64,000 nt of DNA from NCBI GenBank assembly GCA_014378065.1, contig JACMOK010000069.1, forward strand, positions 1 to 64,000, given 5' to 3'. Shown piece after piece: positions 10,985-58,325 of the stretch. Source of the stretch: Flavobacterium sp. (lineage in GTDB: Bacteria; Bacteroidota; Bacteroidia; Flavobacteriales; Flavobacteriaceae). Position 1 is the stretch's first letter; every line of letters begins with the position of its first letter. The position numbers were made by a program, and so were the translations under genes. The notes under the pieces were generated by a model, which was not told where the DNA came from, ran no database searches, and saw only the letters and a list, made by a program, of their open reading frames with translations.

Positions 10985-11107
10985 CTTGTTGGTTTGCGTG
11001 AGGGATGGCAGTGGAAATCGCCCGATTGTACCCTATTTTTTTTTAAGTTTGCTTTTGGTGGATCGGGCATTGAAACGTACAGCCCGACCCATAGGGGCAC
11101 GCCCCGA
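10985..11107 (-). repeat. Interspersed palindromic element, copy C (minus orientation)
   Basis: Element strand: GGGGCGTGCCCCTATGGGTCGGGCTGTACGTTTCAAT-GCCCGAT...ATCGGGC-GATTTCCACTGCCATCCCTCACGCAAAC; shares flanks with copies at 28079 and 47073. Confidence 0.7.
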
Positions 11108-21730: not shown

Positions 21731-24700
21731 CTATCGTTTTAATGCAAAATGGGATCTGAATATTTTACTAATCGTATTTTCTTCATAATGAACTATGAAC
21801 CAATAGTCTGAAGATGGAAGGCTTTGTTGATTAAAAGTTCCGTCCCAGCCTAAACCTAAAGGGGTGATTTCTTTCAATAATTTTCCAAAACGGTCAAAGA
21901 TATAAATTTTTGCTTTAGCTTGTCCTTTCAAATCGAAAATATTCCAAGTGTCATTGTAACCGTCGCCATTGGGTGTAAAATATCTCGGATAATTTAAAAG
22001 ATCAATCTCTTTTTTGTATTCGCCACACTCACTCCTTACCACAACATCATGATGCCCTGCTGCCACATTGCTAAAAAGATAATTGCTTTGAAATGCCCCA
22101 TTATCAAGTTGGTATTGATAGTTTCCGGCAGGACTTACCATTACTGTAATGATTTGATTATCAGCAAAATATTCTGATGATACAACCGAAATTGTAGCAG
22201 GTGTTGGCGCGAGATTTACCGAGGCTGTTACCATGCTCGAAACGCAGTTGGTAGCTGCATTTGTCGCAATTACGCCATATACTCCGGCAGCCGTTGCTGG
22301 ATAAAAACTTTGGTTTTCAAAAGGAATCAGCGTATTGACTCCATTGTCTATGCGAAACCATTCAAAACTATGCGAGGTATTGGATAGATGAGAGTCCAAA
22401 ATATAAGGCGTCAAAACAGCATTGGTAGAACTGTCTACACAAACATACCCATTTTGTAACTGCGGAAAAGGCTGCGGATGAACCACAACAGTAATCGCAC
22501 CCGGAAAACTCAGACAATCCAAATTAAAGTAAATGATCAAACTATAGTTCCCACCCATCGCGGTCCTGGCCCCCAAAATGATCGGATTCTGGACAGACGA
22601 GGTATACCCATTTGGTCCAGACCACAAGTAGCTGGCTCCCACCACTGCAGTTGTCGTTAAGGCGATCGATTCGCCAACGCAAACATCACTACCCATGACA
22701 ACTGGCGCGGGCGGTATCGTGGGCGCGGAATTTATTGAAAATGAGGCCGAATTGGAAACGCAGCCGGTACTATTATTTTTTACCATAATGTCATATATCC
22801 TATTTGGTATTAAACCAATAAATATGGGGCTCGACTGATAAGTTAGACCACCATCGATGCTAAAAAGTGTGTTAGTCCCAATCGGAGTAGTTATTGAAAT
22901 ACTTCCAAACGGATTAGCACAAGTGGGTTGCACTATCGATGCTGTTGCTGGAAGCGGATTCTGTGGCATGGGATTTACTGTGACAACAGTAGCTAAAGAA
23001 ACGCAGCCAGTTATGTTATTTCTAGCGGTAATCGTGTAACTATTATTGGGTGCTATTCCGGAAAAGTTGCTATCTGTTTGATAAGTTACTCCATTGTTGC
23101 TGCTATATTCGAAATTAGTTCCTAAGGGTGAAATAATTTGTATCGTAGCTGTCGGATTGTAACAGTTGGGTTGACTAATTGTAACGGATGGGGCGGCAGG
23201 ATTTGAAGGAAGAGCAGCGATGGTAAACGTTGTTGCCGGGGAGACACATCCCGATGCAACATTCCTGACCGTTAGGCTGTAGGTTGTGTTGGGGAGCAAG
23301 GCCGCAAATATGGGACTATTTTGATAAGTAATGCCATTGTTATTACTGTATTGAAAATTGATACCCAAGGGAGCACTAACCACTGCAGTTGCCGTTGGAA
23401 CACTACAAGTTGGTGCGATGGTAATACTCGCAATTGGAGCAATTGGAACTGACAAAGCCGGCGTAATGACCACGCTACTGCTGCTAGATATACATCCCGT
23501 AACCATATTTCTAACTATCACATTATAGCTGGCTGCATTTAAACCCACAAACGATACACTACTTTGGTATGTTGTTCCCCCATTCACACTATATTCTAGC
23601 ATCATCCCCAAAGGCGAAGCTACTATAAAACTTCCTGTATTTGTTGCGCAAGTAGGCTGAGTGACAACCGTTAAAGGAACCGGCGGATTTGTCGGAATCG
23701 GATTTACTACAAAAGAAGCCGCCGACGAAATACAACCAGTAAGTCTATTTCGTACAGTAATACCGTAAATCGTATTCGGCAACACCGACAAAAACGAAAC
23801 CGGATTTTGATAAGATATGCCGCCGTCAATGCTGTATTCCAAATCGGTTCCCAAAGGGGCAGTAACCACAATTTTCGCTGCTGCAAGGCATGTCGGTTGT
23901 GTTACTGTAGCTGTCGGAGCTGCTGGATTCGTTGGAATTGAATTCACCACTACTGCTGTAGCGAGAGAAATACAGCCCGTCGTAACATCTCGAACCGTAA
24001 TAGAATAGGTATTGTTTGGTGTTAATCCAGAAAAAGTCAAGCTGTTTTGATAAGAAGTACCTCCATCATTGCTATACTCAAACGAAGTGCCTAGTGGTGA
24101 TGAAATTACAATTGTACCGGTAGCAATAGTGCAGGTGGGCTGAATCAAAGTAGTAGCCGTTGGAGCCGCAGGTGGTAACGAAATGGCATTAACAGTGACT
24201 GTGGTGGCAGAAGAAATACAACCTGAGACGTTATTCTTTACTGTAATGTTGTAGGTTGCGTTTGGAGCCAATCCTGAAAATACCGTAGCGCTTTGATAAG
24301 TGATTCCACCATTTATGCTGTACTCTAAATTAATTCCAATTGGAGCAGTAATTTGGATCACACCAGTCGGAGCATTACAAGTAGGTTGAAAAGTAGTGCT
24401 TCCAGTAGGTGCAACTGGAATAGGCAATACAGGGTCGATAGTTACCACAGCAGAGATCGATACACAACTGGTCAAATTGTTGCGAACTACTACACTGTAG
24501 GAAGTTGCGGCATTTAAGCCAGTAAACGAAACGCCATTTTGGTAGGTATTGCCTCCATCGCTGCTGTATTCTAAATTTAAACCAACCGGCGAAGTGACAT
24601 TGAAGCTGCCCGTATTTAAGATACAACTAGGTTGCGAAACAATGCCAACTGGCTGACCTGGGTTTGCGGGAATCGCATTCACTACAAATGCACTCGGCGC

Positions 24701-27040
24701 AGAAATACAGCCCGTAAGCATATCTTTAACAGTAATATTATAGACATTGGGTGACAAACCAACAAATGAAATACCAGATTGATAAGTGGCTCCTGAATTA
24801 GCACTATACTCCAGGTTGGTTCCCAACGGCGCAGAAATAGCTATAGTCCCGCTGGTAACTAAACAATTCGGTTGGCTTATGATTCCGGAAGCTGGTGACG
24901 GATTTGAAGGAAGCGGATTAATAACCACTTGGGTAATCGTCGAAACACATCCCGTTACCATATCCTTTACATTTATTCCGTAGGAGGTATTGGCGGCCAA
25001 AGCTGAAAAAATCGGACTACTTTGGTAAGCCAGGCCACCATCGATACTATATTGCAAATTCGCCCCAATAGGAGCTGTTACCACCAGAGTCGCGCTAGGA
25101 ACAAAACAAGTAGGCTGAAACGTTATGCTTACCGTGGGCGTTGTTGGCACCCCTAATAGCGGATTTATCACTCCAATAACCGTTGTCGACGTGCATTGCG
25201 ATATCGCATTGCTAACTACAACATTATAGCTACCCGATGTAATTGCCGCAAAAATGGGGTTGCTTTGGAAAGTAACGCCATTATCTATGCTATATTCTAG
25301 GTTGGCTCCCAGAGGCGAGGTAATCGTTATAGAACCATTGGTGACAGTACAATTGGGTTGAACTATTGTAAATAATGGAGCGATTGGAGTCAGATCAATC
25401 CGTATCGGCACCGGGCCTGCCGAAAAGGCTGCACAATTGCCCGACGCTGCCAGATTATAATTTACGGTATAATTTCCAGGCAAACTCAAACTAGGATTGA
25501 TTTGACCGGTTGCCGAATCAATACTTAAACCACTTGGCATTGCGCTGTAAACACCACCTGTAGTGACCGATGTGGTGATGGTCTGAAGTGTATTAATGCT
25601 GGTACAGTAAGCCGCTACCGGATAAGAAAAAGTCCCTGAAGGAGAAGGGGAAGCGCTCAGCGTAAAAGGTTTTACAACAATACATCCTGATAAACTACTT
25701 TCCACGCGTACCCAGATTGTAGCCGCAGTGGAACTAATTATATAATTACTTAAATCTGCGTCAGGTATAAGTCCTACCGAGCTTCCATTATAAGCTTCAT
25801 TGTTAGCATTCGTACTATAGTACGAAACCAAATAAACTAAAGGGTCAAGTGGTCCTAAAACTGCAGCGGTTTGATCTATATTAAAATTATAAGGTGGCGG
25901 TAATAAAGTGCATATATTATTATTTACAGGAAGTACAATCGGCGTTTCTGGCAAAAAGGCTATGCCTATATCATCGTGTGCCATCAAACAATTACTTGGA
26001 GTATAAACATTTAAACTGTAGGTGCCTCCAGTCGTTACAGACAAGATCTCGCTATTTTCGCCCGGAAGTACCACCCCATTATGAAGCCATTCGAAAGTAT
26101 TGGGCGCCACGATTAATCCAGAATTGATAATCACTGTTTCGCCAAAGCACACATTCTTATTGTTTGCTAAATTAAAGTCATCCACCAATACTAAAGGATC
26201 AATTCTAAAATTCTTAAGAAATACGCCCGAATCGAGATAATTATCAGTAACGTTACCAATTGCAAGTTTAATATGGTATGTCTCTCCACATTGTATCGCT
26301 GAAGTTGCGGTCAATACTGTCGTAAATCCATCATACTCTACCGTTTCTACGCTAGAATTGTTCGGATTCATTCCGAATGGTCCGTTATTAAAATAATAAG
26401 CACAATTGGTGCAGCTTCCATTATTATTTGGGCCATTGTTGACCGTGTCGATAGATATTGGTATATTAGTGTTAGGTACAAGCGCAATGTTTTTTGCGTT
26501 GTTAGAGTACAGTCCGGTTATTCCCGGACCACTTAAAAAAAATCCAAAGGTATCATTGATAAAATTGACGTAACCTGCATATTCCTCTGATCCAAAAACG
26601 AAATCAAAATTTACTTCAAGACCAGTAGCCAAGAAATCAAATTCAAGAATTGCAGAACTAGAAATTGAGCTTCCAGACAATTGTTGTAAATCCGGATCTA
26701 CTCCAAACGGAGAGGATGAAAAAATCTGCCCTGTTCCTAAGTTATTGTGAGAAGTATTCGGACCCATGGCAAACATGGCTTTCCCTGTCGTCATTAAAAC
26801 GCCACGCTTAATACCCATGTTGGTTTGGTTAAAATTGGTGTTGAATTCAGCGACTTGATCCTTGACTTGATTGGCATTGGCAGCCGTTCCGTTAAACTTA
26901 ATATTTAGAGGGGTTACTCCCAGCCCCACCAAAACATCTCGAACCAATTGCGCAGGAGTTTTGGCCGTGTCGTCTATCATTAATTGCGCGTGCATAGCAC
27001 TTCCGAAAAAAAGCAATCCGAAAAAAATAATCTTTTTCAT
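21731..27040 (-). CDS. Giant T9SS-exported adhesin-like protein: choice-of-anchor L N-terminal domain, 11 tandem ~81-aa modules, gliding-motility-associated (type B) C-terminal domain
   Basis: Signal peptide MKKIIFFGLLFFGSAMHAQ at 27040; FDFVFGSEEYAGYVNFINDTFGFFLSGPG; C-terminal YFTPNGDGYNDTWNIFDLKGQAKAKIYIFDRFGKLLKEITPLGLGWDGTFNQQSLPSSDYWF. Confidence 0.92.
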   Translation of the reverse strand: MKKIIFFGLLFFGSAMHAQLMIDDTAKTPAQLVRDVLVGLGVTPLNIKFNGTAANANQVKDQVAEFNTNFNQTNMGIKRGVLMTTGKAMFAMGPNTSHNNLGTGQIFSSSPFGVDPDLQQLSGSSISSSAILEFDFLATGLEVNFDFVFGSEEYAGYVNFINDTFGFFLSGPGITGLYSNNAKNIALVPNTNIPISIDTVNNGPNNNGSCTNCAYYFNNGPFGMNPNNSSVETVEYDGFTTVLTATSAIQCGETYHIKLAIGNVTDNYLDSGVFLKNFRIDPLVLVDDFNLANNKNVCFGETVIINSGLIVAPNTFEWLHNGVVLPGENSEILSVTTGGTYSLNVYTPSNCLMAHDDIGIAFLPETPIVLPVNNNICTLLPPPYNFNIDQTAAVLGPLDPLVYLVSYYSTNANNEAYNGSSVGLIPDADLSNYIISSTAATIWVRVESSLSGCIVVKPFTLSASPSPSGTFSYPVAAYCTSINTLQTITTSVTTGGVYSAMPSGLSIDSATGQINPSLSLPGNYTVNYNLAASGNCAAFSAGPVPIRIDLTPIAPLFTIVQPNCTVTNGSITITSPLGANLEYSIDNGVTFQSNPIFAAITSGSYNVVVSNAISQCTSTTVIGVINPLLGVPTTPTVSITFQPTCFVPSATLVVTAPIGANLQYSIDGGLAYQSSPIFSALAANTSYGINVKDMVTGCVSTITQVVINPLPSNPSPASGIISQPNCLVTSGTIAISAPLGTNLEYSANSGATYQSGISFVGLSPNVYNITVKDMLTGCISAPSAFVVNAIPANPGQPVGIVSQPSCILNTGSFNVTSPVGLNLEYSSDGGNTYQNGVSFTGLNAATSYSVVVRNNLTSCVSISAVVTIDPVLPIPVAPTGSTTFQPTCNAPTGVIQITAPIGINLEYSINGGITYQSATVFSGLAPNATYNITVKNNVSGCISSATTVTVNAISLPPAAPTATTLIQPTCTIATGTIVISSPLGTSFEYSNDGGTSYQNSLTFSGLTPNNTYSITVRDVTTGCISLATAVVVNSIPTNPAAPTATVTQPTCLAAAKIVVTAPLGTDLEYSIDGGISYQNPVSFLSVLPNTIYGITVRNRLTGCISSAASFVVNPIPTNPPVPLTVVTQPTCATNTGSFIVASPLGMMLEYSVNGGTTYQSSVSFVGLNAASYNVIVRNMVTGCISSSSSVVITPALSVPIAPIASITIAPTCSVPTATAVVSAPLGINFQYSNNNGITYQNSPIFAALLPNTTYSLTVRNVASGCVSPATTFTIAALPSNPAAPSVTISQPNCYNPTATIQIISPLGTNFEYSSNNGVTYQTDSNFSGIAPNNSYTITARNNITGCVSLATVVTVNPMPQNPLPATASIVQPTCANPFGSISITTPIGTNTLFSIDGGLTYQSSPIFIGLIPNRIYDIMVKNNSTGCVSNSASFSINSAPTIPPAPVVMGSDVCVGESIALTTTAVVGASYLWSGPNGYTSSVQNPIILGARTAMGGNYSLIIYFNLDCLSFPGAITVVVHPQPFPQLQNGYVCVDSSTNAVLTPYILDSHLSNTSHSFEWFRIDNGVNTLIPFENQSFYPATAAGVYGVIATNAATNCVSSMVTASVNLAPTPATISVVSSEYFADNQIITVMVSPAGNYQYQLDNGAFQSNYLFSNVAAGHHDVVVRSECGEYKKEIDLLNYPRYFTPNGDGYNDTWNIFDLKGQAKAKIYIFDRFGKLLKEITPLGLGWDGTFNQQSLPSSDYWFIVHYEENTISKIFRSHFALKR
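22715..25395 (-). repeat. Array of 11 tandem ~243-bp coding modules in the adhesin
   Basis: Module pattern: P..P.....QPTC...(G).I.I.aPlG.nleYS.nGG.tYQ....F.gL.pn..Y.itVrn..TGCiS.......N..P. Confidence 0.9.
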
Positions 27041-27086
27041 TCGTAGTGATACTGTTAAAAAAAGTTTAATATTCAAATATAGCATA

Positions 27087-27113
27087 TTGCCAAAAATATC
27101 TTTGTTAAATTTG
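27087..27113 (+). promoter_or_regulatory. Putative promoter for nifU
   Basis: TTG (27087-27089) - 16 nt - TAAATTTG (27106-27113), 18 nt before ATG 27132. Confidence 0.45.
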
Positions 27114-27131
27114 CAAAAAAATAAACCTATC

Positions 27132-28031
27132 ATGATTAACATCAGCGCAAAAGAAACTCAAAATCCAGCCATATTTAAGTTCGAGTTCCCCGATTTTATT
27201 ACTAAAAACAAAAGTTTCGAGTTTAAAAATATAGACGAAGCCAAAAGCTCCCCGTTAGCACAACAGTTATTTTACTTGCCTTTTGTAAAAACGGTGTACA
27301 TTTCAGCAAATTTTATCGCCATCGAACGTTACGATATTGTAGCATGGGAAGATGTCAAAGATGCCGTTGTAGAGCAAATTGAGAATTTTGTAAACAATGG
27401 CGGTGTTATTATTGCCGATGAGGAATTAAAATCGCAAAAACAACCCGTTACTGTGTATGGCGAAACCACGCCGAATCCAGCCACGCTCAAATTTGTAATC
27501 AACAAAATGGTTACAAAAACGGCTGTAGAATTCAAAAATATAGACGAAACCAAAGCCTCTCCGCTGGCTAAAGAATTGTTCCGTTTTCCTTATGTTAAAG
27601 AAATATTTATCGATGAGAATTATATTAGCGTCAGCAAATATGAAGCCTATGAATGGAATGACATCACGCTTGAACTTCGATCATTTATCAAACTCTTTAT
27701 CGAAAATGGCGGAATGGTTTTGGACGAAACCCAACTGACTGCCAATCCAAAAATCGAAAAACAGCAAATTGAAAATTTCGACCACCTCGACACCACCTCG
27801 CAGCAAATCATTAATATACTCGAAGAATATGTCAAACCGGCCGTAGCTGCCGATGGCGGAAACATTCTTTTCGATTCTTACGACCCTATCGAAAAACGCG
27901 TGAAAGTAGTTCTTCAAGGCGCCTGTAGCGGTTGTCCCTCGTCGACATTTACCTTAAAAAGCGGCATCGAAAACATGCTTAAAGACATGCTCAAAGACGA
28001 AAATATCACAGTAGAAGCCATAAACGCCTAG
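27132..28031 (+). CDS. NifU family protein with two tandem Nfu N-terminal scaffold domains
   Basis: KETQNPAIFKFEFPDF and GETTPNPATLKFVINKM repeats; C-terminal GACSGCPSSTFTLKSGIENML. Start moved from 26871 to 27132. Confidence 0.93.
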   Translation: MINISAKETQNPAIFKFEFPDFITKNKSFEFKNIDEAKSSPLAQQLFYLPFVKTVYISANFIAIERYDIVAWEDVKDAVVEQIENFVNNGGVIIADEELKSQKQPVTVYGETTPNPATLKFVINKMVTKTAVEFKNIDETKASPLAKELFRFPYVKEIFIDENYISVSKYEAYEWNDITLELRSFIKLFIENGGMVLDETQLTANPKIEKQQIENFDHLDTTSQQIINILEEYVKPAVAADGGNILFDSYDPIEKRVKVVLQGACSGCPSSTFTLKSGIENMLKDMLKDENITVEAINA

Positions 28032-28078: not shown

Positions 28079-28176
28079 GAAGCTATTTCCCGCTATCCGT
28101 TCCAATTCCCGATTTTAAAATCCCGTTTAAAAATTAACTTGCCCCAATCGGGAGATTTCCACTGCTATCAGGGCTA
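28079..28176 (+). repeat. Interspersed palindromic element, copy A
   Basis: GAAGCTATTTCCCGCTATCCGTTCCAAT-TCCCGATT...AATCGGGA-GATTTCCACTGCTATCAGGGCTAA. Confidence 0.75.
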
Positions 28177-28188
28177 AAAATGCCAATT

Positions 28189-45457: not shown

Positions 45458-46051
45458 TTATTTAAAGAAATATAAAAATAAAAACAAATAAACCCATAAT
45501 AAATCCAGAAAGTGCCAATACATCGCACCTAACTCAATTCCAAGGGTTTGAGATGAATTGTATTTTTGTTTAAAATGATTATAAATTATAATAAGAAGTG
45601 AAATCAATCCGCCGGCAAGATGCACCAAATGGACTAACGTTACCACATAGAGAAAAGTAGTTGTAATTGAACTAGCACTTCCTGTAAAATAATACCCTTT
45701 CGCAACGATTTGTCCGAACCCAGCAAACTGCAAAATGACAAACAAAATACCAAGCGCTAAAGTAGCTAAAAGATATGAAGTTACAGCACTTCTTTGGTCT
45801 TTTTGCACTGCCTTTTTTGCCAAATAAAACGTAAGACTGCATCCAATAATTACTGCAGTACTAAAGAAAAAGGGCAGCGGCAATTGAAAATCTTTCAACC
45901 AGTCAGTCCTCGATTTACTTACTACAAAAGCACTTGTCAATCCGGCAAACATCATTGTCATACTCACCATTGCAAACAACAAAATCAATTTATAAGACCT
46001 GTCACTTCTTAATTTATACTCTTGGGCGGTCATTCTTTCTTCAACCATCAT
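45458..46051 (-). CDS. Cytochrome c oxidase subunit 3 (second COX3-family protein)
   Basis: YVVTLVHLVHLAGGLISLLIIIYNHF...ELGAMYWHFLDLLWVYLFLFLYFFK. Confidence 0.93.
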   Translation of the reverse strand: MMVEERMTAQEYKLRSDRSYKLILLFAMVSMTMMFAGLTSAFVVSKSRTDWLKDFQLPLPFFFSTAVIIGCSLTFYLAKKAVQKDQRSAVTSYLLATLALGILFVILQFAGFGQIVAKGYYFTGSASSITTTFLYVVTLVHLVHLAGGLISLLIIIYNHFKQKYNSSQTLGIELGAMYWHFLDLLWVYLFLFLYFFK

Positions 46052-46977
46052 CGTAAAAATTTATCTAAAATGTATACTACTTGTAAAATCGTGATATAAG
46101 AAACGCTGACCAACATTAGCGTTCTGGCTGCTTTGGCTGTACGTAACTGGTACAACCGCACTGCATAAAACAACATCCAAAGCCCTAGCAGCAAAACGAC
46201 ACCAGCCGTTAAAGGTGTAATGTGTAAACTTCCGGTATATCCTAATGCGGGCAAAAGCGAAGCAATAATGAGCCAGACAGTATATAAAATAACCTGTAAA
46301 GCAGTCGATTTGTCTTTTTTTCCGGAAGGCAACATAAAAAAACCTGCCTTTTCATAATCTTCATACAAAAACCATCCAATAGCCCAAAAGTGCGGGAACT
46401 GCCAAAAAAACTGTATCAAAAATAAGGTTCCTGCTTCTATGCCAAAATTTCCCGTAGCAGCAACCCACCCCAACATGAAAGGAATGGCGCCAGGAAAAGC
46501 ACCTACAAAAACCGATAAAGAAGTCATCGTTTTTAAGGGCGTGTAAACACTCGTGTATAAAAAAATGGAAATTGCGCCGAACATCGCGGTTACGGGATTG
46601 ATCGCATACAATATTGCTATGCCAATAATTGTTAAAACAGCGGCAATAACTAGAGCAGTGTTCGCCGACATTCTTCCCGCCGGCACCGGTCGATTTTTGG
46701 TGCGGTCCATGAGCGCATCCAAGTCTTTTTCGATAACCTGATTAAAAGCGTTTGAGGCACCAACCATACAGTAGCCTCCGACGGCTAATTTTATTAGAAC
46801 AACCCAGCCTGCAATGTTAAAGTCAACCACCCCCAGCATAAATCCAGCCAGTGAGGAAAAGACAACACTGACCGCCAGTCTGGCTTTAGTGATTTCGAGA
46901 AAATCAATATAAACGGATTTTAAGGAAAGGGTATTTGCAGTTGCGCTCAAGGTGTAATTTATATTTTTCAATCCCAA
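46048..46977 (-). CDS. ctaB: Heme o synthase (protoheme IX farnesyltransferase)
   Basis: GASNAFNQVIEKDLDALMDRTKNRPVPAGRMS; VFVGAFPGAIPFMLGWVAATG. Confidence 0.96.
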   Translation of the reverse strand: MGLKNINYTLSATANTLSLKSVYIDFLEITKARLAVSVVFSSLAGFMLGVVDFNIAGWVVLIKLAVGGYCMVGASNAFNQVIEKDLDALMDRTKNRPVPAGRMSANTALVIAAVLTIIGIAILYAINPVTAMFGAISIFLYTSVYTPLKTMTSLSVFVGAFPGAIPFMLGWVAATGNFGIEAGTLFLIQFFWQFPHFWAIGWFLYEDYEKAGFFMLPSGKKDKSTALQVILYTVWLIIASLLPALGYTGSLHITPLTAGVVLLLGLWMLFYAVRLYQLRTAKAARTLMLVSVSYITILQVVYILDKFLR

Positions 46978-47072: not shown

Positions 47073-47175
47073 TGCATCTATTTCCTGCTTTCCGCTGCAA
47101 TTCCCGGGCAAGAAAAATTAGATTTGGCTATCTATTTTTTCTTGCCCGGGAGATTTTCACTTCAATCAGGGCTAG
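47073..47175 (+). repeat. Interspersed palindromic element, copy B
   Basis: CTATTTCCTGCTTTCCGCTGCAAT-TCCCGGGCAAGAAAAA...TTTTTCTTGCCCGGGA-GATTTTCACTTCAATCAGGGCTAG; 16-bp perfect stem. Confidence 0.8.
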
Positions 47176-47184
47176 GCTTACTTA

Positions 47185-49308
47185 TTAATAATCAAAATAC
47201 CAATTAAAAATATCACAACGCAATCCCACCGAGAACCAATTGGTACTCTGTTTAAACGTTGTTTCTGTCTCCTGTGTCGGGTCAAAACTCCGGTAGATAT
47301 AACTTGCAAATAATTTTAGATTGGTAGCCGGATTTACCAAATATCCTGCTTGAATGTCAGCTATAAAGACACTGGTTTTATTGCCCTGTCCGATTTTAAC
47401 TCCAGAATCATACGCCCTGTTGCTGTCATAATCCAAATAAATATTGCCTCCATAATTCAAAGAGTCTGTTGGTGTATTAAAATCTAAGCCGCGTTCGCCA
47501 TAGGTAAACTTGCCATCAGCAAAATACCTTCCTTGGTGGTAGCGAGCTACTGCAATAACTTCCTTGAAATTACCGCCCCATTGGTGGCCTAAACTTTGGT
47601 TGGCATGTCCGTAATTGGTCAGTGGGTCGCTGTGTGAATAAACATAAGGACGCACATGGTTGTATTCTACCTGAAGCAATAAATGTTCGACATTGAAAGC
47701 ATTGAAATATTTTATCCCCAATTGATAACCATATTTGTTTTTCCAGCTTTGGTTGCTTTTCTTAATTTCGGTTAAGGAAAATTCATCAAGTAGAAATTGC
47801 CCATAAAAATTAATCTGGTTGTTCCATTTGTATTTTGTGGTCAGTCCCAACAGTGCATTTCCAGACTTGGAAGACGAAGAAAATTCAACCGAACGATAAA
47901 AAATAATTGGGTTTAAAAAACTCATATCAAAACCCCTTCCGTTGGTATTGGCCCAAATCACCGATTCAAACAGTCCAATATTAAGGCGCTTTGTCGCATT
48001 CCAACTCAGATAATGGTTGGCCATATATTTTGTCGTGTAAGTACCATCCAGTGCCGTGGCTTCTCGACGTATGTCTTTGAGAAACATGTAAGTGTTGGTG
48101 TATTTTATTTTCCAAAAATTGGTGTTTATTTTAAAAAAAGGATACGGACTCACGCCATCTGTTGTAATTAACGACCGATAGCCATCGCCTATAAAATTTC
48201 GCCCATAACCCAATTGAATATTAATCATTTTGCTCGGCGTGTAAGTCAAATTTGCTTCGGCCAAGGGCATGTCAAAAGCATCCGCTTTAAAATTTTTTGT
48301 AATCCCTATTCCAGGAATTACGGCCGATGAACTGCTGCCTTTTGCACCTATGGTTCTGGCATTGCTGTTGATGTAATCTGCAAACCGACCTTGGCTTTCG
48401 TAAATGGTAGTTGTAAAGTTCAATTCCTCGCCCAATTGACCTTGAATTTGAAGTCCTCTGGTGTTAATAAAAGTATTCGTCGAAATTCTGCCGCCACTTT
48501 TTCCGGATTGTAGATCAAAAATCGGATTTAGCGTAAACCAATAGCCATCTCCTTGAATCTGAATCATGTTTTCGTTCCAAAGTTTTCTGGCCCACAAGCC
48601 GGATTTGTTTTTCATCAATTTTTCATTGGCTTGGCGAAGATTGTAATATTTGTTTACTTCAGCATAGGTATACGGCTTTACGGCGGTGTGGTTGTTGGCT
48701 CCTACCTGATTCATTTCGGCGTCAAATTGTGCATAATAACTATGTGAAAACGGAATATTCAAATGGCTTTCAAATTTAGGATTGTTGAATTTATGGTAAA
48801 CCAGACTATCATATTCTTTAAGTTCTTTGTCTCGATTTTTAGTGTAGTTTTTTGCATCCGCAACTTTTAAGACTTCCGCTTCAGCGTACATCTGGGCTAC
48901 GCTCTTTAGTGGAATTGCGATTCGAATAGTATATTTTGCATAATAAGGCTGCCCATTGTGAGTGGGCGGACCGACTTTAGGAAATTGTATAAAAATCCTT
49001 TTTGCTTCTTGCGACAATTGTTCGTCATTGGCATCAACATACAAGACTTTAAAGTTGCCTTTGTCATCTACTTCAAAAAGCACATTGACATTGCCCTTAA
49101 AGTTGTTTTGCTGCAAATTCTCAGGAACTTTAAAATTGTTGTATACAAAATCTTGTACTTGATTGTAGAAACAATTTTCCAAATCCTTACCGGTATTATT
49201 TTGACAGTCGGCAAAAATCGGAACTTGTTCTGTATTCTGACTGCTTACTTGCGCCTTAACAAAAAAAGTAGTGAGTAGAAACAGTAAAAAAAAACTATAT
49301 TTTTTCAT
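47185..49308 (-). CDS. Gliding motility protein RemB-like outer-membrane protein
   Basis: 707 aa; signal peptide; N-terminal TonB-C-like segment; barrel-like remainder; overall resemblance to flavobacterial RemB. Confidence 0.7.
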   Translation of the reverse strand: MKKYSFFLLFLLTTFFVKAQVSSQNTEQVPIFADCQNNTGKDLENCFYNQVQDFVYNNFKVPENLQQNNFKGNVNVLFEVDDKGNFKVLYVDANDEQLSQEAKRIFIQFPKVGPPTHNGQPYYAKYTIRIAIPLKSVAQMYAEAEVLKVADAKNYTKNRDKELKEYDSLVYHKFNNPKFESHLNIPFSHSYYAQFDAEMNQVGANNHTAVKPYTYAEVNKYYNLRQANEKLMKNKSGLWARKLWNENMIQIQGDGYWFTLNPIFDLQSGKSGGRISTNTFINTRGLQIQGQLGEELNFTTTIYESQGRFADYINSNARTIGAKGSSSSAVIPGIGITKNFKADAFDMPLAEANLTYTPSKMINIQLGYGRNFIGDGYRSLITTDGVSPYPFFKINTNFWKIKYTNTYMFLKDIRREATALDGTYTTKYMANHYLSWNATKRLNIGLFESVIWANTNGRGFDMSFLNPIIFYRSVEFSSSSKSGNALLGLTTKYKWNNQINFYGQFLLDEFSLTEIKKSNQSWKNKYGYQLGIKYFNAFNVEHLLLQVEYNHVRPYVYSHSDPLTNYGHANQSLGHQWGGNFKEVIAVARYHQGRYFADGKFTYGERGLDFNTPTDSLNYGGNIYLDYDSNRAYDSGVKIGQGNKTSVFIADIQAGYLVNPATNLKLFASYIYRSFDPTQETETTFKQSTNWFSVGLRCDIFNWYFDY

Positions 49309-51026: not shown

Positions 51027-54000
51027 TTAATTTCCAAAATTATAACGCAGCGTAAATCCTGTTCTAATATTTGTTATCGGGAACGAGGTTGAAATTACAG
51101 CTTTGGAAAAAGAATGGTCATAATAGAAAATCGCTGTCAGATTTTTACTGAATGAGTAATCGGCGGTTAATTTTGCCGACCAAATATTCTGCCCGCCTGA
51201 TAGCTGGTTGTTGTTGTAATCGAGATAGCGCACAATGGTTTGGCTATTTCTATACGAAACATCGGCTTTTAAATTGATATCGCTTTTGATGATTCCAGTT
51301 GGAGTATCGGCCAGTCTTGAGGACATAATGACATCTTTAATTCGGTATCCCATGCCGACAATATATTCCACTCCTTTTACTTCGGTTAACAAATTGTTGT
51401 CGAAACTCATAGACAAGGCACGGTCTTTTTTCATTTCTGCAAGAAACTTAATTGAATTTTTCAACTCAAAATCGATTCGCATCAACGGACTAAATTGTTC
51501 GACCAAATTGATGTTTGAAATGAGCACCTTATTGTAAAAATTTCCTCCAGCATCGATATTCAAAGTACCGTCTGATCTTACACCGCTTGGTGCTTTATCA
51601 TATTCAAAATTAGAACGAAAAGAGTTTACCGTATAGGATGCCTTGTAACTATTTTGTAAAGAAAACCTTTTAAACCGATCCTTGAAAAATTTGTACCGCA
51701 TCAGACCGCTATATTTGATTGTCCAGTTCGGAATAGGAACACTGCGGAATGCGCCTAGTGAAACTCCTGAAGCGTCTGTGCCGGTATAGGCTGCCAAAAA
51801 CGAAGGCAACAACACCGCTTGGTTGTTTTTACCAAACCCTATCGGAAAGCCTTGGTTGGCGACATAAACAGCATAAGTAGGATCTGTGCTTGCCGGAATC
51901 GGATTACTGGCATCTCCATACCTTGGAATGCCCGGACTTGACGCATAATAATTAGCGGCCAAGCGATCTGCAATAATCAATCGATTGCTTTTTAAATCCT
52001 CGAATGCACCAGAAAAATTTTCATCGCTCTGACTGAAAGCGGTTTTTATCAAAACGGTGGAAATGGAATAATTTCCAAAAGTGTAGGGCGATCTTGAATT
52101 GTATTTTCCTTCACTAACGTCATATTGCTCTGAAAAATTTTCGACGTAAGTTCTGTCTGCATTTAAATCGATTTTAAAATCTGGAAACAAATCTACATTA
52201 GCCGTCAGGTTAAGTGTTTTGGTCGTTACCTGGGTAAAATTTTGGTTGAAATCCGGATAGTCGGTCAGCCAACCTCTTTTGGCCGCCTCGATACGTACAT
52301 CTTCTTGAGAACCAAACAAAAATCCGACTGTCGGTTTGGTGGTGCCAAAAAATCCGATACCGGGAATGTAACCAGGCAAAACGGTTCCTCTGTTTTCTGT
52401 ATAATTCAGTTGAATATTTTTGACGCTTGTCAAAATGCCAATCAGTCCGTTTACAAACAGATTGCCTTCTGTGGCCGTTGTCGGCGCATTGGTGTTAATG
52501 ATTTTTTGGCCTGGTTTTGGCGCAGCCGGAACTGCGGGTTTGGTTGGGGCCTTTTTCCCTTTTTTGGTAAGACCGATATATTTGTAAAAAGAATCCATGT
52601 TAAATGCGGTGTTCAACTTGTGAGAGGCTGCATTTTGTATCGTATTTCCGAGGTTATACGTTACATCATTTCTCACCACTTCCGCCAACGCTAAAGACGA
52701 CCGCTGCCAACTGTAATCGCCGGTGTACGAGTAGGTGGATTTTACAAAACTCAAGAATGGAATTTTATTGATTGGCAAGTCATAATTCAATACAAACTGC
52801 TGTGAATGTTGGTTCGGATCACCTGTATTCCAGTAATCATCCCAAATTGTAACCGTATTGTCTGGCTCATTATCTGCATTGAGATAATTTCTGACAATAT
52901 TGCTTGAGGTTGCGGTATAGTTTATTTTGAAGGCCTTTGTCAAATTGTAATTGAACCCATATTGATAATTAAATAAAAAGTTTCTTCTGTACAATGCATC
53001 TAGCGGAATACCTTGAACCTCCACCTGTCTGAACTGCTGCTTGTTGTATTGTCGCAGAATGCTGCTGCTAAAAGAAATATTTGATGGTAGGTAGTTGAAA
53101 TTGAAATCACTTAATAATTTCCAATAGTCACTTTTCTTAAAATATTTGCTCTTCTTAAATGGCTCGATTGCCTTGGGTTGAAAAGTAAAAGCATAATCGG
53201 CCGTAGTGTTGACCTGCTGATCTCGATAGCTTTCTATTTCAAAATTATGACGGTTGACTTCATTGTAAGAATACGACAACGTCAAATTTTCAGGATCATA
53301 AATGTGCTGTTTTTGCTTTGCTGATCTTTCTTTTCTAACGCCGATAAAGTTGATGCTTTGGCGTTTGGTATAGTCGATTGCACGGTCTTTGATATTGGCT
53401 TTTTCAGCAGAATCGGCCGTCACATCTAACAATTGCTTGAGCTTGATATCTTGGTTAAACGGATCATATTCGGGTGTAATCGTTTCTTCGCCGATGGCAT
53501 AATTAAAAGGTAAATTAATGCCCCATTTTTTTGGCAATAATTTCCCCAAACTCAAGTTGGTTACAATATTGTATTGCTGCAGATCTTCTCGACTTCTTTC
53601 ATTCGGACCTTGCTCTAACGTGCCGAAGCCAATGGTACTTATTTTACCCGTGGCCGAAAGCGTCGCGAAATCGGCAAGATTACCGTCTATATTAACCACT
53701 GCGGCCATTCCGCCTTTGTTGTCCATATCGGCCAATCGGAGTTCGTTAAACCAAACCTCCCCTTTAATTTCTCTTTGAGACGGTAAGTTTTGCGTATTGT
53801 TCTTTAACCCTACCATCAACGTTCTAACCAATCCAAAATTTGGATTTCCGCGCACTCCAATTCTCAATTTATCAGGTCTCGAGGGATCCAGCTGATTTTC
53901 GGTTTGGTAGTAAATCTCTCCGGGGAGTGTTGGCGGATTGCTGCGGGATAATATTTTTAATTGGGTCAATAATTCCAAAGGCAAATCAATGTTGTTGGAT

Positions 54001-57000
54001 TCGGGCCACACCAAAGTAGCGGGTACGACCCCTTGAATGCCAGCGGGAGTAACTTCCAATGGAATTTCTATCTGATAGAAATTTTCGGTAAAGTCATTTC
54101 CAAAACGGATAAAGGCAACCATTTCGTCGTTTTGCAGCGCCGGTGAATCATTGGGAAGCGCTTCGGCGTGCAGAAACATTTTTAACTTTTTAAATTGTCG
54201 CATGTCTACACTGACATTTTTAAAAACCGCTCTCGAGTCGCCCACTTCCAATCCGGTTCCAGAAACCCTTAGTGCAAGTGCTTGTTCATTTTGATTGATT
54301 ACTGTATTGTTATTGTACAACTGTTCTCTTACAACGCCTGGAGGCGAAACATAATTTATAGGTTGGCGGTTGGCGTTTTCCTCAATATTTACCGCTTCTA
54401 CATCGAAATTAGTAGTGTCCAAATTGTTGGTGTCGGTGTTTTCCAGTGGATCGAGTGTGTTTAAATACCGTCTCCATTCGCCTCTGACTAGATCTAATGT
54501 ACCAAATCGAACAGTAACATTATCCGCAAAATCAGTCATGTACATTCTCATGAAACGAATGGATCGAAAATCTGAAATCGGACCCACTTTACTCTCAAAT
54601 TGCGAAACTGGTATTTTAAATTGAAGCCATCTCACCGGAGTGGTCGTTCCCAAACTTGACCCCTGTGCGGTCGGACCTACCGTTTGCAAAAAATCGGTCA
54701 TGTATGGTGTGGTACCCACAGCCATGTTGGGCTCCAGATCTATATGGTATTCAAAATAAGCGTTGTAGCCGTCCATGGTATTGTCTCGGTTGATGTCTTC
54801 CACATCAGGCACCGTTGAATTGCCGCGGTTGGTGTCAGAAACATTTACGGGTGAGTTTCCTTGTAATCCGTTATAATTTTTATATCGATTTAATATACTT
54901 CCTGAAGCGGCCAAATAGTATTCGTAATTATCTGCCGCGGGATCTGGCAAACTTGCAAAGTTAGTGTAAATCGCACCTTCTTGACCGTCAGACAAACCAT
55001 CTAAACCAACATCTTGTACAGACCGATTGCCCTCATTGGTATCAAAAGCATAGATCAGAGATTGGGATACAGGAACTTTTCCCCAAGGAGTATCATATGT
55101 TATTTGATTCGAGCCGGCTTCAGGCAAGCCATTTTCAAACTGTTTTCTTCCATCTTTCAAAATATCTTCTGAAATAGAACCCAAATTAAAATATATTTTG
55201 CCTTTATTGTTCGGATCAAGCGCATCAGCTCCGTAATAAGGATCAATAATCCAAAATTGTATATACTCTACATTGCCTTGTTCAAAATTAGTAGAATTTA
55301 AAGATCTTGTAATTCCTCCAAAATTGTCTTTCGGATTGGGCAACGTGTTGGTTCCGGCAGCCGCAGGATTGTTGTTGTAAGGTCCTCTTTCACTTGGATA
55401 ATAACTTAAATCCAGTGTGTTAATGACGGTACTTTGACCGACCGCAATTTGCGTATTGGGAAAAAGCTCCTCACTATAAATTCGTCTGGTCTTGTTATAA
55501 GAGATTTCATCGACCGAAATTCCTGATGGTCGCTGCGTGTAGAAAATCGGGTCTATACTATACCAGTTTAATTTGGCTCTTTTATACCCGTACATTACAT
55601 CATTGAAGCCTTCTCCAAAATCTTTAACAGAAGTCGCCGGAGTAGAGGATAATGTCCAAGACAAAGCAGAACGCAAATCGATATTGGTTTGAGTACCTTC
55701 AAAATCATCTACATAAATGGTTGATTCCCCGTCAAATTTGTCGGCCTTAGGACTGTCGGGTTTTAAGAATGCTACTTCACCACGAAATGAAAAATTGGAA
55801 GGTACATCGGTATCGATATTGGGCAATTTATTGACCCATCTTGTAAGGAATGGGAATTCTGTAGAGAAATTTGTATTCAATCCAAAAATAGAATTGTTAA
55901 CTGATTCTTGTCCATAACTTGATTTTTGTGTCAATGGTCTTTCACTCATTTTTAGAAAAGTCGCTCCGATTAAAAAATGATCTGAAAATTTGTGCTCAAC
56001 ATTAAAACCCATGAATCTACGAGTCTGTTGTCCGAAAGTGGAATTATTTTCTACAGAAACTTCAATCGGTGTATTAGAAGCCTGCAATGCAGGATCCAAT
56101 ATTTGAACCCGACCTGCTTGATAATTCACACTATAATCTACACCTTCAAGCAATACTCTTCCGCCCGCGGTAACTACTACACTCCCCTTTGGTACATTGA
56201 ATGCGCCAATAGGAATACCTTCGCCTCCCGCAGATTTAAACTTGCCTTTAAGTTGGTATTTGTTTTTTTCACTGTCTTGTAATGCGGAAGCCTGTGTTTT
56301 ATCATACATTTCCTTAAACACAAATTTCTTCTGGTTGTCGTTATAAGTGTTAACATTGTTGTAATCTTCTGTTCCCACTTTTAATTTTTTAAAGATCAGC
56401 CCTCCGAATGGTTCAACGGTTGTGAAAATCAATCTTCCATTTTGAGTATCTACTGTAAGCCCCGGAATAAAATCAAAAAAACCATCCCCGCCCACTTGGG
56501 GATCATTGTTGTAATTTAACTTGTCTACATTGAACACTTTGAGCAAAGGCGTCTCAGAAATCCGGTCTTCGGGATTTGGTGTTGGTGGAAATGGTTGGGT
56601 TGGAACCGGGCTGATATAATTTAATGGTGAAGGATCGGTATACAATATGTTAAAGCGGAAATCCTCCTGCGCCAGTTGATAGGCTCCTGGAATCTGATAA
56701 ATATTCTTCATCATCAAATCCCAAATTGGGGTATCTACATTGGTTAAATTGCTTTTCAACATTTTTACTACCAAGGTTTGAGAGGTAATTGTTTCCGGCT
56801 GTCCGGTAGCGGGATCTGTTGGTCCGGCTTGCGTAGCATCTACTCCGTCATTGCCAAATTCGCCGACTTGATACACTTTATCTCCAACAGTATATTGGTA
56901 AGCCACAGCCAGAACCTCGTCGTTGGCCAATCGCTGTTGCAAAGAAAGATAACCCAATTGTGCATTAAACGTATATTCATTTGGGCTTAATTTTCTGGCG

Positions 57001-58325
57001 TTTTCCAATTTAGAATAATCTTGCCCTTCCGCAGGCGTAGGCGTTATATTAAATCCTGAATTTGAAGTGGCAATTTCCCTAATATTCGAGTTGAGATTTC
57101 CGCCGCCGGTAGCAATCAATCCAGGGTCGTATTTGTTGTTTTTATTATCAACCGGTGAATCGGGACCGGCAATAAAAAAATTACCGAGATTTACTGGGTT
57201 TAAAACCACCACATTATTGTCTGCCAAACCGCTAATTCTTGCTTCCCCTAAATCTTGTAAAGCGATGATGTTTCTCAGGTTGTTGTTGGTTGTGCTAATC
57301 CGATTTTGGCGGTTGGTGATCCAGACTTCCATACGGGTAATCTGCACCCTACTGTCAATAAACGGATAATTTTTGAGTGAACTGTCATATTTATTCCTAA
57401 AATACTGGGATAAGAAAAAGTGCCGGTCAGCATCATAATCGAGTGCAAACAATTCAAAATCCTGAATTGTTCCGCCACCCTGAGCCGTAACAGTTTTGGT
57501 CTGGGATTTCTGCTCGGAGAAGATTCCTGTCACCGTTGTTTTTCCAAATTGTAGCTGTGCTTTTACACCAAACAAACTTTGAGCACCGCGAATTAAAGAA
57601 CTGTTCAACGGAAGACTTACATTTCCAACTTCTATTTTCTGGATGATGTCGTCTTCGGTAGGCGTATATTCTAACTTAATCAAGTTTTGAAACGCAAAAG
57701 TAGATTCTGTGTCATAATTGGCTGTGACTTGCAATCTCGTCCCTACTTTGCCCATCAAACTCATACTAATTCTTTGGTCAAAATCGAAAGTAGTACTTTT
57801 ACGATTTCTTGGAGAAAAAGCGGGATTGTCTTGTTTGGTGTGGCGGAGACCCAAATCAATTTCAACAGAGCCTGTAGGTTTTACATCTATGCTGTTGCTT
57901 CCGAATATCGATTCAAAAAAACCCGAATTGACGTAATAACGGGGTAACAAGTCTTTTTTTCCTTCCTCAGAACCTTCTTTTTTTCCATCAATGGCATCCG
58001 ACTTTTTTTGAAAATACTTTCGCATCGATTCACGTAGCACCAATTCGTCGTATTCTTTAGGCGTTAAAATAATAGGATAATTGATATTAAAATCATCCAC
58101 CTTGTTGGTATAAATATAACGGTTTGTTACTGGATCGTAAGAGTAAGCTTCGATGATACTCGGCGGATTGGTCAACTGTAAGCTACCTACGGTGTAGCCA
58201 GGCTTTATGGAATCCTGCACTTCTTCTGTTACTTGCGACTGAACGCTTAAGCTAACACAGAAAATCAGTGTAAGAACAGCAATTTTCAAAATAGAATCGA
58301 TTTTTTTTTGGTACAATGTTTTCAA
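51027..58325 (-). CDS. sprA: Cell surface protein SprA (type IX secretion translocon)
   Basis: 2432-aa outer-membrane protein; ATFLKMSERPLTQKSSYGQESVNNSIFGLN, YVDDFEGTQTNIDLRS; adjacent to ruvA and maeB. Confidence 0.96.
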   Translation of the reverse strand: MKTLYQKKIDSILKIAVLTLIFCVSLSVQSQVTEEVQDSIKPGYTVGSLQLTNPPSIIEAYSYDPVTNRYIYTNKVDDFNINYPIILTPKEYDELVLRESMRKYFQKKSDAIDGKKEGSEEGKKDLLPRYYVNSGFFESIFGSNSIDVKPTGSVEIDLGLRHTKQDNPAFSPRNRKSTTFDFDQRISMSLMGKVGTRLQVTANYDTESTFAFQNLIKLEYTPTEDDIIQKIEVGNVSLPLNSSLIRGAQSLFGVKAQLQFGKTTVTGIFSEQKSQTKTVTAQGGGTIQDFELFALDYDADRHFFLSQYFRNKYDSSLKNYPFIDSRVQITRMEVWITNRQNRISTTNNNLRNIIALQDLGEARISGLADNNVVVLNPVNLGNFFIAGPDSPVDNKNNKYDPGLIATGGGNLNSNIREIATSNSGFNITPTPAEGQDYSKLENARKLSPNEYTFNAQLGYLSLQQRLANDEVLAVAYQYTVGDKVYQVGEFGNDGVDATQAGPTDPATGQPETITSQTLVVKMLKSNLTNVDTPIWDLMMKNIYQIPGAYQLAQEDFRFNILYTDPSPLNYISPVPTQPFPPTPNPEDRISETPLLKVFNVDKLNYNNDPQVGGDGFFDFIPGLTVDTQNGRLIFTTVEPFGGLIFKKLKVGTEDYNNVNTYNDNQKKFVFKEMYDKTQASALQDSEKNKYQLKGKFKSAGGEGIPIGAFNVPKGSVVVTAGGRVLLEGVDYSVNYQAGRVQILDPALQASNTPIEVSVENNSTFGQQTRRFMGFNVEHKFSDHFLIGATFLKMSERPLTQKSSYGQESVNNSIFGLNTNFSTEFPFLTRWVNKLPNIDTDVPSNFSFRGEVAFLKPDSPKADKFDGESTIYVDDFEGTQTNIDLRSALSWTLSSTPATSVKDFGEGFNDVMYGYKRAKLNWYSIDPIFYTQRPSGISVDEISYNKTRRIYSEELFPNTQIAVGQSTVINTLDLSYYPSERGPYNNNPAAAGTNTLPNPKDNFGGITRSLNSTNFEQGNVEYIQFWIIDPYYGADALDPNNKGKIYFNLGSISEDILKDGRKQFENGLPEAGSNQITYDTPWGKVPVSQSLIYAFDTNEGNRSVQDVGLDGLSDGQEGAIYTNFASLPDPAADNYEYYLAASGSILNRYKNYNGLQGNSPVNVSDTNRGNSTVPDVEDINRDNTMDGYNAYFEYHIDLEPNMAVGTTPYMTDFLQTVGPTAQGSSLGTTTPVRWLQFKIPVSQFESKVGPISDFRSIRFMRMYMTDFADNVTVRFGTLDLVRGEWRRYLNTLDPLENTDTNNLDTTNFDVEAVNIEENANRQPINYVSPPGVVREQLYNNNTVINQNEQALALRVSGTGLEVGDSRAVFKNVSVDMRQFKKLKMFLHAEALPNDSPALQNDEMVAFIRFGNDFTENFYQIEIPLEVTPAGIQGVVPATLVWPESNNIDLPLELLTQLKILSRSNPPTLPGEIYYQTENQLDPSRPDKLRIGVRGNPNFGLVRTLMVGLKNNTQNLPSQREIKGEVWFNELRLADMDNKGGMAAVVNIDGNLADFATLSATGKISTIGFGTLEQGPNERSREDLQQYNIVTNLSLGKLLPKKWGINLPFNYAIGEETITPEYDPFNQDIKLKQLLDVTADSAEKANIKDRAIDYTKRQSINFIGVRKERSAKQKQHIYDPENLTLSYSYNEVNRHNFEIESYRDQQVNTTADYAFTFQPKAIEPFKKSKYFKKSDYWKLLSDFNFNYLPSNISFSSSILRQYNKQQFRQVEVQGIPLDALYRRNFLFNYQYGFNYNLTKAFKINYTATSSNIVRNYLNADNEPDNTVTIWDDYWNTGDPNQHSQQFVLNYDLPINKIPFLSFVKSTYSYTGDYSWQRSSLALAEVVRNDVTYNLGNTIQNAASHKLNTAFNMDSFYKYIGLTKKGKKAPTKPAVPAAPKPGQKIINTNAPTTATEGNLFVNGLIGILTSVKNIQLNYTENRGTVLPGYIPGIGFFGTTKPTVGFLFGSQEDVRIEAAKRGWLTDYPDFNQNFTQVTTKTLNLTANVDLFPDFKIDLNADRTYVENFSEQYDVSEGKYNSRSPYTFGNYSISTVLIKTAFSQSDENFSGAFEDLKSNRLIIADRLAANYYASSPGIPRYGDASNPIPASTDPTYAVYVANQGFPIGFGKNNQAVLLPSFLAAYTGTDASGVSLGAFRSVPIPNWTIKYSGLMRYKFFKDRFKRFSLQNSYKASYTVNSFRSNFEYDKAPSGVRSDGTLNIDAGGNFYNKVLISNINLVEQFSPLMRIDFELKNSIKFLAEMKKDRALSMSFDNNLLTEVKGVEYIVGMGYRIKDVIMSSRLADTPTGIIKSDINLKADVSYRNSQTIVRYLDYNNNQLSGGQNIWSAKLTADYSFSKNLTAIFYYDHSFSKAVISTSFPITNIRTGFTLRYNFGN

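Follow-up and report, generated by a model that had tools for sequence, protein, structure and literature searches.

The 64,000-nucleotide stretch of Flavobacterium DNA analyzed here, referred to below as the window, holds an intergenic element (copy B) between a gene encoding a 707-aa protein with a TonB_C domain (47185-49308, minus strand) and ctaB, encoding a 309-aa UbiA-family prenyltransferase (46048-46977, minus strand). The locus raises the question of what this element is, and whether it acts as part of a transcript or as DNA. An earlier note on the sequence had described a 16-bp inner stem around an 18-nt spacer, flanked by outer arms, and all of these parts are present. On the plus strand they follow in the order arm (47078-47101), TCCCGGGCAAGAAAAA (47102-47117), 18 nt (47118-47135), TTTTTCTTGCCCGGGA (47136-47151), and arm (47152-47175). 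Read on the minus strand, which is the family strand, the 5' outer arm is CTAGCCCTGATTGAAGTGAAAATC (47152-47175), to which alignment with our own covariance model, R1, assigns helices 1 and 2 together with the 5' half of helix 3. It is followed by the 5' strand of the apical hairpin, TCCCGGGCAAGAAAAA (47136-47151), which is of the "TCCCG" type, the apex (47118-47135), the 3' strand TTTTTCTTGCCCGGGA (47102-47117), and the 3' outer arm ATTGCAGCGGAAAGCAGGAAATAG (47078-47101, from the R1 alignment). The 18-nt "loop" at the apex pairs with itself, TAGAT with ATCTA, beyond a single T.T mismatch, and the stem of copy B is thus 16+5 bp with a 6-nt loop. The TAGCCC of copy B lies 10 nt from the stop codon of the TonB_C gene, which on the family strand is the upstream neighbor, ctaB being the downstream one.

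Copy B is a genuine and typical copy of a known and widespread family, the Flavo-1 RNA motif (Rfam RF01705; Weinberg et al. 2010, PMC2864571). The whole element (47074-47177, minus strand) matched positions 1-76 of the 76-position model in cmscan with 59.1 bits (E 2e-12) compared to a gathering score of 42, and scored 64.6 bits with R1. Copy B and RF01705 have in common this full-length match above the gathering score, the base, the middle helix, and the phylum; they differ in that RF01705 is catalogued as an RNA gene (Rfam type Gene; sRNA). Copy A (28079-28179, minus strand) lies between genes assigned by Pfam to an Nfu/NifU-domain protein and a DUF255 (Thioredox_DsbH) protein, antisense to both, and was recognized with 59.1 bits in cmscan and 77.2 bits with R1. 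The likeness of the two copies that had been claimed was borne out, the 28-nt right arm of copy B being 89% identical to copy A and the inner stem being different. A weak third copy (11003-11084, plus strand) covers only model positions 10-70 and was detected by R1 (34.1 bits, E 4e-8), falling under the Rfam gathering score. Folding of copy B as single-stranded DNA gave z = -6.1 for the minus strand and -5.2 for the plus strand; the folding energy of copy A was no better than that of shuffled sequences, and the family would therefore be missed by single-copy energy alone.

The prediction of tens of further copies held, as approximately 131 matches to the Rfam model were found in the window genome. 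By comparison, blastn returned 13 matches, and R1 113 copies in the window together with the fetched loci of this genome. Two relatives carried 101 (G004) and 46 (G011) copies. Flavo-1 was present in 12 of 12 relatives of the same genus, in all 44 genomes reached via ctaB loci, where counting stopped at 83 copies per genome, and in 45 of 297 Bacteroidota genomes, among them 18 of 18 of the same genus, compared to none of 14 control genomes. Among the structured repeats of Flavobacterium it ranks with the most abundant, and no function has been assigned to it since 2010; our literature search returned no functional study of RF01705 or of Flavobacterium palindromic repeats. An origin from a phage or virus was rejected, since the exact left-arm pattern occurred in just 1 of 2.9 million viral contigs. 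That sole contig (L344, IMGVR_UViG_2617271209_000002) carries an element that looks complete, with a short palindromic apex, and which may be host DNA at the edge of a provirus.

Alignments of 34 and 113 copies agreed on the consensus 5' TAGCC-CNG-AT-N-G ... G-ANAG-CN'GG-AAATAGCTCC 3'. Across the 34 aligned copies TAGCCC, G11-A12-T13, and G15 were invariant, and ANAGCNGGA in the 3' outer arm was nearly so. The juxtaposed A12/G98 and G15/A95 likewise showed no variation; they sit between the pairs N10-N100 (seen as U-A, C-G, G-C, and A-U) and N14-N96 (A-U, G-C, U-A, and C-G). The base and middle helices covary: 95-96% of cells were paired, the covariation score was reached by 0 of 500 shuffles, and slid controls gave 0.07-0.12 compared to 0.49. 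The inner hairpin, with a median of 10 paired positions from its base, is formed by many unrelated sequences. The expectation that stems would covary in a larger alignment was thus strongly confirmed, and the copies and their covariation support the idea that stems divergent in sequence but conserved in pairing reflect something acting on structure rather than sequence; neither of the outcomes named as refuting, a lack of further copies or of covariation, arose.

Inner-stem mismatches distinguish the two strands. On the family (Rfam) strand, G-U was found 47 times and A-C 9 times (p = 3e-7), an A-C on the family strand being what would be a G-U on the opposite strand. Divided by the context of the neighboring genes, the G-U to A-C counts were 17:4, 9:4, 12:0, and 8:1, and the excess, present in all gene contexts, is therefore independent of the regional direction of transcription. 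In the window genome, copies were antisense to both tandem neighbors in 48 cases and sense in 20 (context assigned from ORFs), this being the only genome significant alone; the complete genome of a relative (G010) gave 19:10 (p = 0.14), the two pooled gave 67:30 (p = 2e-4), and loci of other relatives showed no orientation bias (9:9). Replication-strand bias in G010 was not significant, at approximately 23:14 in a hand count that assumed the origin to be at dnaA, the GC skew having given no clear origin.

The earlier note had argued that copy B, pointing opposite to both flanking genes, is unlikely to be just a terminator. The orientation argument fails because copy B, in the Rfam orientation, runs with its neighbors, all three being on the minus strand; it is copy A, unlike copy B, that opposes its neighbors. 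The conclusion itself is still likely on other grounds. A transcription terminator or mRNA 3'-end stabilizer that works on the gene-sense strand would agree with the finding that, in the window genome, the element's 3' end is a median of 16 bp away from the stop codon of the opposite-strand gene. However, copies are not enriched between convergent genes (13 of the 103 classified copies compared to 21 of 144 background gaps), the A/T tracts are inside the stem with no T-run, and hence no U-run, after it, and the strand that tolerates G-U is in most cases the other one, mostly antisense to the genes. We consider such a role highly improbable.

A second reading at the transcript level is that Flavo-1 is a real RNA, produced from the family strand as an sRNA or cis element that a protein binds, as the Rfam typing implies. 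The covariation accords with this, and the G-U tolerance of the family strand also fits such an RNA. In F. psychrophilum several Flavo-1 matches coincide with transcribed 5' regions, but the matches there are sense or antisense indistinctly and many lie outside transcribed regions (PMC9723704). Weighing against an RNA further are the antisense placement relative to most tandem neighbors in the window genome, and the 131 copies, among which no common gene context was noticed and whose apical hairpins are unrelated in sequence. An RNA therefore appears unlikely, and from the G-U asymmetry and the orientation statistics we infer instead that the element acts as folded single-stranded DNA.

Comparison of orthologous sites bears on the same question. 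In a Flavobacteriaceae MAG whose ctaB is 84% identical (L104), a copy of another helix-3 subtype than copy B occupies the gap between these two genes, oriented alike and starting 10 nt past the stop codon, as in the window. A further locus (L097) also carries the L104 subtype ahead of ctaB, with another apex and in another upstream context, so that the contrast between copies A and B is visible at a single site too. The proposed comparison of this intergenic region among orthologs found a copy in L104 and Flavo-1 missing from the ctaB site in most other Flavobacterium species, which indicates that copies come and go over longer times. The 80 ctaB neighborhoods surveyed (L097-L176) held 4 copies, too few for statistics; this is a strong depletion near ctaB, 4 matches in 1.53 Mb where a rough genome-wide density would predict about 29. 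The L097 record (CALPOS020000007.1) bears the title Sphingobacterium thalpophilum; given a ctaB 85% identical to that of the window and the presence of Flavo-1, this MAG is probably mislabeled, and the labels of L154 (Bifidobacterium) and L155 (Nitrotoga) look wrong too.

Two pairs of sister species were compared at closer range, F. sinopsychrotolerans and F. psychrolimnae (G023/G056, ~89% syntenic identity) and F. ranwuense and F. yafengii (G024/G026, ~93%). Within contiguous syntenic stretches, all strong copies whose flanks could be aligned were matched at the same place and in the same orientation; none faced a clean empty site, and a single 40-bit match lacked a counterpart. The remaining G024/G026 sites were taken from fetched pieces, each of which contains a copy, and absence cannot show there. 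An automatic comparison of 22 flank-matched pairs, a small sample from draft assemblies of isolates, gave a median flank identity of 0.90 and a median arm identity of 0.95. Apical identity fell into two groups, 11 sites at 0.51-0.78 and 11 at 0.87-1.00, a split set after the fact, and non-orthologous copies had a median apical identity of 0.58 with a 95th percentile of 0.78. The two groups, taken with this percentile, indicate block replacement of the apex in half of the pairs. Clear replacements are L290/L303, L293/L301, G024 C1:958 kb / G026 C1:937 kb, L369/L394, and L346/L393. At G024 C1:868 kb / G026 C1:853 kb the unusual arms were kept and the hairpin within ATCCTTT...AAAGAT alone differs. 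The lowest bin also includes partial changes, such as L345/L391, where the lower stem was kept and only the apex altered. At L358/L399 the outer pairs changed too (arm identity 0.77), so that the whole element is sometimes exchanged. At a given locus the outer arms persist and the inner hairpin is often swapped whole for a different self-complementary sequence, which suggests that Flavo-1 acts as folded DNA and not as part of an mRNA.

Hairpins also recur at loci whose arms differ. In G026, TCCCGRTTTAGAAAAACAAGG...CGGGA is common to three copies, each with an arm type of its own, and the hairpin CTTATGAGCYGGKGTTCGGC is found at different loci in F. ranwuense (L369) and F. yafengii (L393), each locus being without it in the other species. 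Among similar inner hairpins within a genome, the outer pair N10 agreed no more often than elsewhere, in 17 of 57 pairs compared to 33% of others; because hairpin similarity is inflated by low-complexity T/A stems, the named examples weigh more. Most new hairpins had no identical donor, the best same-genome matches being 0.48-0.93 among the donor copies listed. In the absence of exact donors, gene conversion, template switching, and in-place fold-back renewal are all candidate routes. Some apical hairpins hold what appear to be other repeats, TCATTGCGAGGAACG(A/G)AGCAATC and TGAACTTGTTTCAGGAT, giving Flavo-1 the look of a nest for palindromes (G024:C19:181194, G026:C1:1517209, G024:C12:319912, and G026:C10:36150). 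We take these repeats to be widespread.

The missing donors are in keeping with the possibility that nothing is exchanged between loci and that fold-back repair, in which one arm serves as template for the other, lets the apex evolve in place and renews the palindrome locally. Paired changes in place, from GTCTC/GAGAC to GCCTC/GAGGC (L355/L374) and from AGC/ACC to TAT/ATA (L362/L387), would be explained in this way, as would the altered apex on a kept lower stem at L345/L391. Fold-back repair does not readily account for unrelated and often longer palindromes that arrive as blocks, for related hairpins at other loci behind different arms, as in the three G026 copies, or for the invariant A.G and G.A base mismatches that stay uncorrected, and we judge it a rather doubtful explanation for the family.

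Block replacement could alternatively be re-insertion of a REP-like non-autonomous element mobilized by a Y1 (RAYT/TnpA-REP) transposase. Flavo-1 resembles REP/BIME elements in being short, intergenic, high-copy, and hairpin-forming with one strand folding better, and its proximity to stop codons in the window genome is also REP-like; atypical secondary structures have been reported for the Bacteroidetes Y1 subclass 2.6 (PMC6006769). However, PF01797 (Y1_Tnp) is absent from the window genome (G000, 97% complete, 131 copies), from G004 (101), and from G011 (46), and G018 has three Y1_Tnp and zero Flavo-1. PF01797 was searched in this genome and 20 relatives, and across these 21 genomes Y1_Tnp and Flavo-1 are not associated; near 30 Y1_Tnp loci, Flavo-1 gave only two clear matches and a marginal one, and mobilization by a RAYT was rejected. 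That no strong copy in the syntenic stretches faced a clean empty site argues the same way, making a REP-like element very unlikely. Unlike REP/BIME, Flavo-1 is 75-130 nt long and forms a multi-part hairpin in which the hairpin is exchanged and the base kept, and no GTAG/GTGG or CGTC foot was noticed in the 34-copy consensus. Evolution of REPs by gene conversion was proposed in the title of Higgins 1988, as cited in PMC12306157.

With moderate confidence, we favor the explanation that Flavo-1 is a long-lived DNA element that folds when single-stranded, its base fixed and its apical hairpin replaced by copying from other copies. The family strand, exposed in replication or repair, would fold into a long imperfect hairpin composed of an outer base (helices 1 and 2, in which the invariant A.G and G.A juxtapositions surround two pairs), a middle helix, and a perfect apical hairpin. 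The base, kept at the locus, would probably be the binding site of a putative protein. The apical hairpin would be a replaceable module at a fixed site, swapped alone, with the middle helix, or sometimes with the whole element, the incoming sequence being either a hairpin from a different copy or some other palindrome. The most probable route would be local DNA copying once the hairpin stalls or is cut, by ectopic gene conversion or by template switching at short homologies such as ATCCTTT...AAAGAT. More speculatively, and as an idea we hold only tentatively, Flavo-1 sites might be fixed sockets, where a cellular enzyme would recognize the conserved folded base and bring about exchange of the hairpin at the apex, so that the palindrome moves and not the site, unlike in REP transposition. 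Any benefit of Flavo-1 to the cell is conjectural.

A folded single strand with a conserved base, a variable terminal structure, and asymmetric base mismatches is known from integron attC sites. The likeness is in working only; Flavo-1 is probably not a member, shows no cassette arrays, and GTT/AAC core boxes are not apparent in the 34-copy consensus. For the palindromic repeats of Volvox, we know of no comparison of orthologous sites. These nested repeats (PMC2670323) are likewise intergenic, variable-stem hairpins with palindromes within palindromes, but they belong to organelle genomes and have no fixed covarying base. New here are the kept base with its frequently replaced apical hairpin and the strand statistics pointing to DNA; the Flavo-1 papers we found make no mention of apex block replacement, modular sharing, or strand and orientation statistics. 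If the apex is swapped while structural constraint maintains the base, covariation in motifs of this kind does not have to signify an RNA gene, and Flavo-1 would offer a natural assay of DNA copying provoked by hairpins in bacteria. The G-U versus A-C strand test and the ortholog test can be applied to other high-copy orphan "RNA" motifs.

Elsewhere in the window, an 1803-aa ORF (21731-27142, minus strand) has 243-bp internal repeats, matches to fn3-like and other repeat domains, and a CHU_C type IX secretion signal. A 2432-aa homologue of SprA, a type IX secretion and gliding protein, is encoded at 51027-58325 on the minus strand (SprA_N, E 2e-208).
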